Part shown: piece after piece, positions 49,636 through 53,064 of the stretch | Numbering within the stretch: position 1 is the stretch's first letter | Layout: each line of letters begins with the position of its first letter | Translations under genes and position numbers: made by a program | The notes under the pieces: generated by a model | The model's input: only the letters and a program-made list of their open reading frames with translations | The model's database searches: none | What the model was told of the DNA's origin: nothing | Assembly (NCBI GenBank): GCA_024278275.1 | Contig: JAJRTN010000059.1 | Location: 1-55,216 of the forward strand | Direction of reading: 5' to 3' | Length of the DNA stretch: 55,216 nt | Source: Candidatus Hydrogenedentota bacterium | GTDB lineage: Bacteria; Hydrogenedentota; Hydrogenedentia; Hydrogenedentales; JAJRTN01

Positions 49636-50502
49636 ATGGCGGATCGAACCTACACCCCCGATGTTCCTTATCTCTACCACTTCAAGCTGGACCGTATTCT
49701 GGGCGAGGGCGGCACGGGCCGGGTCTATCGGGGGGTCGATACCCGGGAAGGCCGGGTGGTCGCGGTAAAACGTTTCCATGAAACCTTTTTTCGTAACGCC
49801 CTCCATCAGCGCGATTTGAAAAAGAGCATCAAACGCTTCAAAAAGTTTGATCATCCCAACGTGGTGAAGATATTTGATTTCCTTAACAAGGATGACAACT
49901 TCGGCGACTGCATGGTCATGGAGTACATTGACGGCCCGGACCTGAAATGGTACATCGTGAATCGACCCTGGAATTTACGGGAACGGCTGACCATCGTGGC
50001 CCAAATCTGCAACGGGCTCCAGTACCTGCATGACAAAAAGGTGATACACCACGACTTCAAGCCGGCCAATGTTCTTTTCACCCGGAAGGGCCAGGTCAAG
50101 CTGGCGGACTTCTCGCTTTACGGCAGCAGCCTCTTGCTGGAGTTGTTCGACCGGGGCGCGGGGGAGCAGGTTACGCCCATGTACGTGGCACCGGAGTTTT
50201 TGCGGAAGGAAATCCCCACCACGGCGGTGGATCAATATACCTTGGGTGTCACCATGTATCTCATGTTCGCCAGTCCGCCCGAAGGTCCCGTGCGTCAACC
50301 CTTCCCCGTGGACAGTCTCCCCGCGCTGTACCGATGCCACTTACAGATCATGCCGGACCACCCGTCCATCTCCAACCCCGCCTGTCCCCAGGAACTGGGA
50401 GACATTATCCTCAAGCTCATGAACAAGAAACCGAAGGATCGCTTCAAGGACTGCGACGAACTGCGCATCGCCCTGTCATCCATCGGCAGAAGCCGAATCT
50501 GA
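49636..50502 (+). CDS. small Ser/Thr protein kinase
   Basis: Protein of 288 aa; a kinase domain with little else and no TM segment. Gly-loop GEGGTGRVYRG, ATP-binding Lys in VAVKRF, alpha-C Glu region, HHDFKPANVLF (HRD motif reads H-H-D; catalytic Asp kept), ADFSLYG (DFG reads DFS) and MYVAPEFL (APE). The Asp of DFS needed for Mg is kept. Probably active, but the odd DFS and HHD deserve testing. Rightward with rsfS and 18 bases from it. Confidence 0.9.
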   Translation: MADRTYTPDVPYLYHFKLDRILGEGGTGRVYRGVDTREGRVVAVKRFHETFFRNALHQRDLKKSIKRFKKFDHPNVVKIFDFLNKDDNFGDCMVMEYIDGPDLKWYIVNRPWNLRERLTIVAQICNGLQYLHDKKVIHHDFKPANVLFTRKGQVKLADFSLYGSSLLLELFDRGAGEQVTPMYVAPEFLRKEIPTTAVDQYTLGVTMYLMFASPPEGPVRQPFPVDSLPALYRCHLQIMPDHPSISNPACPQELGDIILKLMNKKPKDRFKDCDELRIALSSIGRSRI

Positions 50503-50526
50503 TACATGCCCGCAAAGAGAGAAGGC

Positions 50527-50552
50527 CTCCGGCGCAAACCACCACGCCGGAG
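50527..50552. terminator. hairpin between the convergent kinase and peptide genes
   Basis: CTCCGGCG (50527-50534), a 10-nt loop, and CGCCGGAG (50545-50552) form an 8-bp perfect stem. It lies between two convergent genes, so it may act as a bidirectional terminator, but there is no T-tract on either side. Confidence 0.4.
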
Positions 50553-50600
50553 ACCTCGACGTTCTACCATTGGGTTGGAACGAGACGCTCGGTCACGCAC

Positions 50601-50828
50601 TCAGATATCGGTATCGTTGAACACCCCCGTGTCCCCCGTGGTGCCGCTTGTACCCGTTCCCGTGTCCGTCGTGGAATCGCCGGGTCCGGTGGCTTTCCAG
50701 GGGCCCTGACGTTGCGCCAGCAAAAGCCGGTCTATGACTTGGGTAACCATGTCCAGGAAGAGGCCCGCGGGCGACTGGGCACGTTGGGGTGTCTGTGTGA
50801 TTATCTGTAAATGAGCCTGACGTTTCAT
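50601..50828 (-). CDS. small peptide B of a paralogous tandem pair
   Basis: Protein of 75 aa on the minus strand. ATG 50828 has AAGGAG upstream (spacing about 6). The N-terminal half reads MKRQAHLQIITQTPQRAQSP and then FLDMVTQVIDRLLL, which aligns with peptide A. The C-terminal about 30 residues are Gly/Thr/Ser/Asp-rich and have no Cys. A helix-like hydrophobic N-part and a variable polar tail recall a precursor-peptide layout, but no modifying enzyme is adjacent. Not recognised as a known family. Confidence 0.6.
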   Translation of the reverse strand: MKRQAHLQIITQTPQRAQSPAGLFLDMVTQVIDRLLLAQRQGPWKATGPGDSTTDTGTGTSGTTGDTGVFNDTDI

Positions 50829-50844
50829 CGGTTTCTCCTTCGTG

Positions 50845-50970
50845 TCAGCGCGTAATGTTAAAGATAAACTCGATGAGCTGGTCCACCAAATTTATGATGA
50901 AGGTGTACTTGTCTTCCGTCGGGCTCTGGGCAAGCTGTGGCTTGCGTGTGACAACCCTGTGATGCTTCAT
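50845..50970 (-). CDS. small peptide A of a paralogous tandem pair
   Basis: Protein of only 41 aa, too short for an ordinary gene search. ATG 50970 has GGAGCGCAAAAGGT before it. Sequence: MKHHRVVTRKPQLAQSP, then FIINLVDQLIEFIFN. Positions align with peptide B: P-Q-x-A-Q-S-P, then (F/I)(L/I)x(M/L)V(T/D)Q(V/L)I(D/E). The stop lies 16 bases before the ATG of B, so the two form one operon, driven by the promoter at 51086-51114. Confidence 0.6.
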   Translation of the reverse strand: MKHHRVVTRKPQLAQSPTEDKYTFIINLVDQLIEFIFNITR

Positions 50971-51040
50971 ACCTTTTGCGCTCCTTCGTTACTCCGAGAG
51001 GCCCTACGGGCGACCGATAGGACAGCCCCGCCCAAAAACC

Positions 51041-51067
51041 GGTGGCGTACACCCGTGTGCGCCCACC
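51041..51067 (-). promoter_or_regulatory. 5' leader hairpin of the peptide operon
   Basis: GGTGG...CCACC arms with extended pairing and a small CCCG loop. It lies between the predicted transcription start (about 51079) and peptide A, giving a leader of about 110 nt that could fold. Role unknown. Confidence 0.35.
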
Positions 51068-51085
51068 TGTAACATCCACCCCCAT

Positions 51086-51114
51086 TTAATAACACGTGCG
51101 GGCGGTTTTGTCAA
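51086..51114 (-). promoter_or_regulatory. sigma70-type promoter of the small-peptide operon
   Basis: On the minus strand: -35 TTGACA (51109-51114, perfect), 17-nt spacer, then -10 TATTAA (51086-51091). It points leftward at the two peptide genes and starts about 43 bp after the ABC-F stop, so the peptides have their own transcription unit. Confidence 0.7.
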
Positions 51115-51156: not shown

Positions 51157-53064
51157 TTAGCCGACGCCATGTTGCACCTGGCGAGAAAGCTCTTCCCAAG
51201 CAGTGTACAGGGTGCGAAGGTCCGCCTGCAACCCGTCGTATTCCGTTTTGAGAGCGGCGGCCGCCTGAAAATCCGCCGGATCAATTGCGGCAAAGCGGGC
51301 GTCAAAGTCGGCCAACAGGTCTTCAAGCGCCTCAATATCCGCTTCCAGCTTCTCCAGTTTGCGCTGTTGACGGCGGTCTTCCCGTTCGCGTCCTTTTTTC
51401 GCTTCACGGCTTTCCTGTCCCCGGCGAATCCGTAATACCTCCTCTTGGGACTTCTCCTGGGGCTTTTCATCCGCGATGGCATGTTTGCGGCGATAGTCAC
51501 CGTAGTTTCCGAGATAAACCGTGGCGGTTCCATTTTCGATAAGAATCAGCCGATCGGCAAGGCGGTCGATAAGCGCACGGTCGTGGCTTACGAGCACCAT
51601 GGCGCCGGGAAACTCGGCAAGGGCGGCTTCAAGCGCCTCACGCGAGGCAATGTCAAGATGGTTGGTCGGCTCGTCCAGTAGAAGGAGGTTGGCGTCGCTG
51701 AGAATAAGCTTGGCCATGGCGACACGGCTCAACTCGCCCCCACTCAGGGATCCCACCTTTTTGAAAACATCATCTCCGGTGAAAAGCAGGCGTCCGAGGA
51801 ATGACCGTATCTGCTCGGGGCGCCAGGCTGGGCGGCAGGCCTGAACTTCGGAGAGCACGTCGTTGGCGGGATTCATCTGTTCATGGTTCTGTTCGTAGAA
51901 CTCCATGACGACTTTGTGTCCGGGCGTTACTTCGCCCGTGGCGCCGGGGAGCTTTCCGGCCAGTTGTCGCAGCAGGGTGGTTTTGCCCGAACCATTGGGG
52001 CCGACAATGCCGATGCGCTCGCCCCGCTGCACGCGGAATGACACGTTCCGATAGAGTGTGAGATTTCCGTAGGCCATGCCCAGATCTTGGGCGTCCAGAA
52101 CGCATTCCCCGCTCCGAACCACTTCGCCGAGGCTGAACTTCGCGGCATCCAACTCGGCGGGTGGGGCTTCGATCCGTTCCAGTTTCTCCAGCCGCTTGAT
52201 GCGGCTCTGTGCCTGGCGCGCCTTGGTGGCTTTATAGCGAAAGCGGTCGATCCAGACCTGTTCTTTGCGTATGAACTCCTGTTGACGTTCATAGGCGGCC
52301 TGCTGCTGCTCCCGATGGAGGGCCTTCGCGGCGAGATAGTGGTCGTAGTCGCCTTTGTAGGCGTGCAATTCACAACGCTCAACCTCGACGATCCGGTCCA
52401 CCGCGGCATTGAGCATCTGGCGGTCATGGGAGATAATGACGAGGGCCTGACGCGAATTGCGGAGGTAGGCTTCCAGCCATTCCCGCGCTTCGAGATCCAG
52501 GTGATTTTCCGGTTCATCAAGCAGCAGCAGATCCGCCTCCTGCAACAGCACCAGGGCCAACATGATGCGGGTGCGCTGGCCGCCACTCAGGGCCTTGAAG
52601 GTCAGGCCGAATTCCGCCGGCGGGAAGCCAAGCCCCTGAAGCACCTGCTTTACCCGTGTGCGGAAGTCATAACCGCCACGATGAGCAAAGATCTCCTGCT
52701 TGTGGCTGTACGCTTCGATGGCGCTCTCGTCTCCCTCCGCCATACGATCTTCAAGGCGCTTCAAATCCGCTTCAAGCTCGATAAGTTCCGTGAACGAGCG
52801 CAGTACGATCTGCTCGATGGTGGCATGGTCGTCCACCTTGGGCAACTGGGCCAGGCAGGCGAAGCGTGCCCGGCGCATACGCTCGATGGTGCCGCTGTCG
52901 GGCTCGATTTTCCCGGTAATAAGACGGAAAATGGTCGATTTCCCCGTGCCGTTCCGCCCAATGAGGCCGATGTGCTCGCCCTCCTCGATGCGAAGGCTGA
53001 TTCCCGCGAGCACGGGCGCCCCCGCGAAAGATTTGCTAACGTTGTCGAGTCTGATTAAGCTCAT
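51157..53064 (-). CDS. ABC-F family ATPase (Uup/YheS-like)
   Basis: Protein of 635 aa with two ABC domains and no membrane segment. Domain 1: GLIGRNGTGKST, ALSGGQRTRIMLAL, LLLLDEPENHLD (Glu where Thr is usual). Domain 2: GIVGPNGSGKTT, SLSGGELSRVAMAKL, LLLLDEPTNHLD. The linker (about 240-310: AKALHREQQQAAYERQ...) and a C-terminal coiled coil (about 530-635: KKGREREDRRQQRKLEKL) are as in Uup. ABC-F proteins act on the ribosome, some giving antibiotic resistance. Single gene; peptide operon lies downstream. Confidence 0.93.
   Translation of the reverse strand: MSLIRLDNVSKSFAGAPVLAGISLRIEEGEHIGLIGRNGTGKSTIFRLITGKIEPDSGTIERMRRARFACLAQLPKVDDHATIEQIVLRSFTELIELEADLKRLEDRMAEGDESAIEAYSHKQEIFAHRGGYDFRTRVKQVLQGLGFPPAEFGLTFKALSGGQRTRIMLALVLLQEADLLLLDEPENHLDLEAREWLEAYLRNSRQALVIISHDRQMLNAAVDRIVEVERCELHAYKGDYDHYLAAKALHREQQQAAYERQQEFIRKEQVWIDRFRYKATKARQAQSRIKRLEKLERIEAPPAELDAAKFSLGEVVRSGECVLDAQDLGMAYGNLTLYRNVSFRVQRGERIGIVGPNGSGKTTLLRQLAGKLPGATGEVTPGHKVVMEFYEQNHEQMNPANDVLSEVQACRPAWRPEQIRSFLGRLLFTGDDVFKKVGSLSGGELSRVAMAKLILSDANLLLLDEPTNHLDIASREALEAALAEFPGAMVLVSHDRALIDRLADRLILIENGTATVYLGNYGDYRRKHAIADEKPQEKSQEEVLRIRRGQESREAKKGREREDRRQQRKLEKLEADIEALEDLLADFDARFAAIDPADFQAAAALKTEYDGLQADLRTLYTAWEELSRQVQHGVG

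Follow-up and report, generated by a model that had tools for sequence, protein, structure and literature searches.

A conserved pair of small genes in Candidatus Hydrogenedentota as candidate orphan RiPP-like precursors of a distant operon encoding a CteB-like protein

We propose, at a probability of about two in three, that the two small genes described here, pepA and pepB, form an orphan pair of RiPP-like precursors, specific to Candidatus Hydrogenedentota, that is handled in trans, with acylation, by an operon on another contig encoding the CteB-like protein d2. The two products are probably peptide precursors that undergo modification, and not targets of the kinase, and judged from their sequences the peptides and the operon would work like a leader-directed RiPP system. 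The window (the whole stretch of 55,216 nt that was analysed) is contig C18 of a 5.35-Mb assembly that is 96% complete; its features, together with the operon of the same genome, are collected in Table 1.

Table 1. Features of the pepA/pepB locus in window coordinates, and location of the operon in the same genome.
Feature	Position	Strand	Basis or remark
Ser/Thr-kinase-like gene, convergent; inherited neighbour outside the system	49636..50502	+	Pkinase E = 4e-42
Intrinsic terminator downstream of pepB, strong, 16-bp stem	50522..50557	-	Sequence scan
pepB, 75 aa, core ...VIDRLLLAQRQGPWKATGP plus Gly/Thr/Asp-rich tail	50601..50828	-	Relatives across the order
pepB leader segment, residues 1-18	50775..50828	-	Leader profile A4, whole genome, E = 5.2e-6 (this leader is itself a row of A4)
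Shine-Dalgarno sequence of pepB, AAGGAG	50835..50840	-	Sequence
pepA, 41 aa, MKHHRVVTRKPQLAQSPTEDKYTFIINLVDQLIEFIFNITR	50845..50970	-	First gene of the pair in 40/40 extracted loci
pepA leader segment, residues 1-15, MKHHRVVTRKPQLAQ	50926..50970	-	Leader profile A4, whole genome, E = 6.5e-9 (this leader is itself a row of A4)
Shine-Dalgarno sequence of pepA, AGGAG	50981..50985	-	Sequence
Promoter, TTGACA (51114-51109), 17 nt, TATTAA (51091-51086)	51086..51114	-	Sequence and relatives
ABC-F ATPase, inherited upstream neighbour	51157..53064	-	PEPCK genes replace or separate ABC-F in relatives
Operon of the same genome	G000:C158:1-5595 (L102) and G000:C23:3268-4551 (L235)		

The original prediction described two tandem minus-strand ORFs, 16 nt apart and each with a Shine-Dalgarno sequence, and this is what the sequence holds, as is the motif given as common to both peptides (PQLAQSP and PQRAQSP). 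The strong promoter claimed for the pair is likewise present in the sequence and conserved among the loci of relatives: TTGACA, 17 nt and TATNNN precede pepA in 25 of 40 loci, and a promoter match of 10–11 out of 12 is found there in 36 of the 40, against one of 40 for controls taken 3' of pepB. A generic promoter scan misses TTGACA-TATTAA, because it demands a final T in the second hexamer. For PepB, AlphaFold2 predicts one long helix (residues 20–38) and a disordered tail, at a mean pLDDT of 64. The PepA core (FIINLVDQLIEFIF) bears a weak likeness, below the cut-off, to the model of epsilon-type phenol-soluble modulins (E = 0.01), which is consistent with a putative membrane-active amphipathic helix.

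Both genes are conserved within a single order. A search with PepB as a single-sequence query detected significant relatives (E down to 1e-17) in some 40 of the 67 genomes that make up the rest of the order; a profile search raised that number. The named relatives are Candidatus Hydrogenedentota MAGs. Outside the order, the search of 223 genomes gave nothing convincing, and one outside match (E = 0.007) carries internal stops. Whether the tandem pair recurs in related genomes had been posed as a question by the original prediction; it does, in the same order, with pepA 5' of pepB at a spacing of 11–42 nt in every one of the 40 extracted loci. The synonymous/non-synonymous ratio, which had been named as a further check, gives dN/dS values between close relatives of 0.02–0.34 for the pair (0.02–0.28 for pepA), that is, purifying selection. 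The recurrence, in most genomes of a phylum that has been little studied, is far beyond chance, and pepA and pepB are real genes.

The consensus of PepA is MKHxRxVTxKPxxxQxSNFQxxKDFLVxLxDQxIEFxFxKTx, and that of PepB is MKxxxHxxxxTxxPxxAQxSNFQIKLExTTxIIDRLLLAxRQxPWKAxGPxG followed by the Gly/Thr/Asp tail, the least conserved part of the peptide. Residues H6, W44 and K45 of PepB (numbered as in the alignment query) are invariant in 24 aligned sequences, and WK is present in 40 of 40. The cores of both peptides are strongly conserved rather than hypervariable, the leader being conserved no better than the core, and inheritance of the pair is mainly vertical, since 33 of the 37 nearest neighbours come from within the family. 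Searches of Pfam, NCBIfam and the PDB returned no relative of either peptide, bearing out the earlier statement that no named family fits, and in open-licence papers we found no account of these peptides or of any Hydrogenedentota RiPP system. In two genomes of family f5, G029 and G004, the same syntenic locus (L145, L147) keeps the leader and has wholly different cores (e.g. SIPYKNFFGGGG), showing replacement of cores at a fixed site.

Two tiny adjoining genes with a strong promoter and amphipathic helices could also be a chromosomal toxin-antitoxin or self-toxin pair, in which case the N-terminus they have in common would be coincidental. This is very unlikely, however, for a pair that occurs once per genome, is widespread in one order with nothing convincing in 223 other genomes, and is inherited vertically under purifying selection; moreover, pepA and pepB are homologous to each other, and their leader is common to the peptides of the operon.

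The neighbouring genes appear, from comparison of the loci, to preserve an ancestral order of ABC-F, PEPCK, pepA and pepB, followed by a convergent kinase-rsfS-gatB-gatA series, and the kinase, ABC-F and PEPCK were rejected as functional partners, their proximity being inherited synteny. A link between the convergent Ser/Thr kinase and the PepB tail had been raised in the original prediction, whereby PepB would be a kinase substrate phosphorylated on its Thr/Ser-rich tail. The kinase does face pepB in roughly 18 loci from several families, but almost all genomes of the order have it, among them peptide-less genomes of family f4 (G017, G023, G032), and in family f10, where pepA and pepB lie elsewhere, it is on a different contig from the pair; kinase and peptides are thus not retained or lost jointly. 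In addition, the tail is the part of PepB that varies most, and at L037 and L039 it consists of Gly/Glu repeats with few or no Ser/Thr. We therefore regard phosphorylation by this kinase as extremely improbable, and the suggested link is not supported. The kinase, which lies beside rsfS/gatB and is conserved through nearly the whole order, has DFS in place of DFG and a catalytic loop reading HHDFKPAN; its relative in L147 has DYS. The PEP carboxykinase often found 5' of pepA is of the ATP type in L083, L084, L090, L105 and L107 and of the unrelated GTP type in L070, L079, L080, L086 and L106, which looks as if one enzyme had taken the place of a non-homologous one at this site.

The preferred reading, that of leader-directed precursors, begins with the N-terminus. 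In both peptides it reads M-K-H-x3-[IV]-[ST]-[RK]-x-P-x2-A-Q, and we end the leader at A-Q because several pepA relatives carry insertions exactly after it (e.g. a GT-repeat in L022). Of the shared leader-like block proposed earlier, the first ~15–18 residues hold as leader, while the amphipathic block after them belongs to the core. The precursor-like layout stands: there is a common leader, many otherwise different cores and insertions at the leader/core junction, and, as is required of RiPP precursors, each gene is a short ORF with a conserved N-terminal leader and a separate core.

When the first ~23 residues were used as a profile, most genomes of the order proved to contain additional small ORFs in tandem; in the genome studied here, this second tandem peptide set lies at C158:4614-5595 (minus strand). 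As a guard against circularity, a leader profile was made from pepA/pepB-type leaders only; applied to 4178 candidate starts in six operon loci, it gave 19 matches at E < 0.1, all within peptide clusters, and no match among shuffled starts. More small ORFs with the same leader, alone or in small clusters, occur at L141, L152, L144, L150 and L154–L157; those at L141 and L152 adjoin a sigma-factor-like gene, and some of the ORFs end QWDNxxQK or KFxxKTP. All these ORFs are candidates for additional orphan precursors in each genome.

Directly 3' of the second peptide set is an operon, found order-wide, with the conserved order peptides-GNAT-GNAT-CPBP-ABC ATPase-ABC-2 permease-d2, in which CPBP is a CPBP/Rce1-like membrane protease. 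In the genome studied here it comprises five leader peptides, two GNATs, the CPBP protease, an ABC ATPase and permease, and d2, whose two parts (C158:138-743 and C23:3268-4551) lie on either side of a contig break. The earlier remark that no RiPP-modifying enzyme is adjacent is thus right at the locus itself but incomplete, as a RiPP-like operon with the same leader lies on another contig. Two stand-alone GNATs and a GNAT domain fused to d2 are conserved in the operon of nearly every genome. In each of the 47 operon peptides checked, which fall into four classes, at least one lysine follows residue 18; in class 1 there is a single such lysine in 16 of 18 peptides. An active radical-SAM enzyme, sought 3' of d2, was not found beside the operon, nor was a six-cysteine SCIFF peptide found in the same genome, which has no match to TIGR03973.

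The protein d2, ~640 aa long, has a GNAT-like C-terminus, and its residues 4–427 match the SCIFF maturase CteB (5wgg; E = 3e-31), the N-terminal leader-binding region included. Models of SCIFF and other peptide maturases also pick it up, with scores far short of their cut-offs (67 bits against TIGR03974, whose cut-off is 425 bits). The alignment with CteB has a gap at the radical-SAM cysteines, and the CX3CX2C motif is absent from 30 of 30 d2 proteins, 28 of which keep a SPASM-like CxxCWAxxLCGGG; the barrel domain may be catalytically dead. By eye, the CoA-binding loops look divergent both in the GNAT domain of d2 and in the separate GNATs. Open-licence papers yielded no description of a non-radical maturase that derives from SCIFF enzymes and is fused to a GNAT. 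With its CteB-like N-terminus, and its position 3' of leader peptides in most well-flanked loci, d2 supplies what a RiPP system calls for, a putative leader-recognition domain in the same genome that is linked to the same leader family.

The leader points the same way. A SCIFF precursor at L253 starts MKHIKVVSKRP, compared with MKHHRVVTRKP in PepA, and 14 of 20 SCIFF N-termini, mostly of one related group, outscore all 370 background ORF starts against the pepA/pepB leader profile. The SCIFF-type leader MKHIKx[IV]xK[KR]P is thus a feature of SCIFF precursors of one group, the other SCIFF groups sampled being without it. A SCIFF-like leader and a CteB-like d2 indicate the same origin for the leader and its recognition protein.

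Of the 68 genomes of the order, 62 encode d2 and 63 have the leader. The genomes without d2 are five of family f4 and G040, which is 60% complete and has the pair. Four f4 genomes lack both d2 and leader peptides, the f4 member G011 has both, and G003 has a leader peptide and no d2; as the four belong to one family, the co-loss represents at most one or two events. In four genomes (G038, G041, G027, G057) the operon is intact with no leader peptide 5' of it, and the pair is on another contig, which is what a substrate in trans predicts. In G041, G057, G051 and G053 the only leader matches are pepA and pepB themselves, the operon contigs of G051 and G053 being shorter.

From these observations we infer the following course of events. 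The RRE-like domain at the N-terminus of d2, itself a putative SCIFF-maturase derivative that has acquired a GNAT domain and no longer has the site of the radical-SAM cluster, would bind the SCIFF-type leader of PepA and PepB; the operon GNATs would modify the core, most likely by acylating the lysine after the amphipathic helix (WK in PepB). Cleavage of the leader would fall to the CPBP/Rce1-like protease, and export to the ABC-2 transporter. Peptides encoded within the operon would be served in cis, PepA and PepB in trans. Acylation of lysine or ornithine by GNATs is known in RiPPs (PMC13060382, PMC9505594), and scattered precursors served by one distant enzyme are known from the prochlorosins (PMC10783134). 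The lysine is conserved in PepB and in all four classes of operon peptides; the post-helix lysine is not universal in PepA, where K occurs among the last eight residues in 25 of 40, and PepA of the window ends FNITR. Since the pair is passed on vertically and kept by purifying selection, its product probably has a physiological role and is not a variable antibiotic. A fuller picture, which we put forward tentatively and at somewhat under an even chance, is that a SCIFF maturase has given up radical chemistry and become a scaffold that binds leaders and is fused to an acyltransferase, serving both the operon peptides and the distant pair, and that phylum-wide (lipo)peptides with acylated amphipathic products and a basic physiological role result.

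Alternatively, PepA and PepB might remain unmodified and act together as a complex of two small amphipathic proteins with a structural or membrane-associated role. Their common N-terminus would then serve d2 and the ABC transporter only as a signal for export or targeting, in the manner of multi-peptide bacteriocins and with no chemistry. Such a complex would suit the strongly conserved, non-hypervariable A and B cores, the vertical inheritance of a single-copy pair (33 of 37 nearest neighbours within the family) and the weak, below-cut-off likeness of the PepA helix to the phenol-soluble modulin model (E = 0.01). Class II bacteriocin loci, moreover, are known to contain CPBP proteins and ABC transporters. 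However, two GNATs and a GNAT domain fused to a CteB-like protein are conserved in nearly every genome, which argues for acylation chemistry, and we consider an unmodified complex unlikely.

Among known systems, four come closest to acylated precursors served by d2 as proposed here. Like SCIFF/ranthipeptide systems (TIGR03973, TIGR03974, 5wgg), the present one has a maturase-like protein, d2, homologous to CteB in its N-terminal region, barrel and SPASM, and both leaders have M-K-H-x3-[IV]-x-[KR]-x-P at the same spacing. In contrast, PepA and PepB lack the six-cysteine core (most A and B peptides have no Cys), d2 has a C-terminal GNAT and no radical-SAM motif, and the Hydrogenedentota operon further encodes two GNATs, a CPBP protease and an ABC-2 exporter. 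As in the selidamides and other GNAT-acylated RiPPs (phaeornamide, kamptornamide, nostolysamides), leader peptides lie beside GNATs and an ABC transporter, and the operon does contain a GNAT acyltransferase; selidamide-type acceptors are lysine or ornithine side chains (PMC13060382, PMC9505594). Those peptides, however, have NHLP or Nif11 leaders, GG cleavage by a C39 transporter and often LanM, whereas here the leader is of SCIFF type and the operon's only protease of CPBP type; the peptides match no Pfam or NCBIfam model and so have no recognizable NHLP or Nif11 leader, and no lanthipeptide synthetase was seen. The system is neither SCIFF nor selidamide, because the features that define each were tested for and did not turn up. 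Prochlorosins/synechococsins likewise combine a common leader with precursors scattered away from one enzyme (PMC10783134), but their leader, enzyme and chemistry differ, and one fixed pair stands here against their tens of variable cores. Two-peptide class II bacteriocins with CPBP similarly comprise pairs of small amphipathic peptides with CPBP and ABC genes, in contrast to the absence of a GG leader, the RRE-like and GNAT proteins and the order-wide conservation seen here.

For Candidatus Hydrogenedentota, the analysis puts a family of small genes that lack annotation into a context open to testing, and the leader profile can be used to find other orphan precursors. The core genome of a phylum known mainly from metagenomes appears to hold a peptide-modification and export system built on a former radical-SAM maturase. 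If this is true, SCIFF-type leader recognition would outlive a change of chemistry, precursors would persist in trans after the loss of peptides in cis, and there would be a new route to acylated ribosomal peptides.
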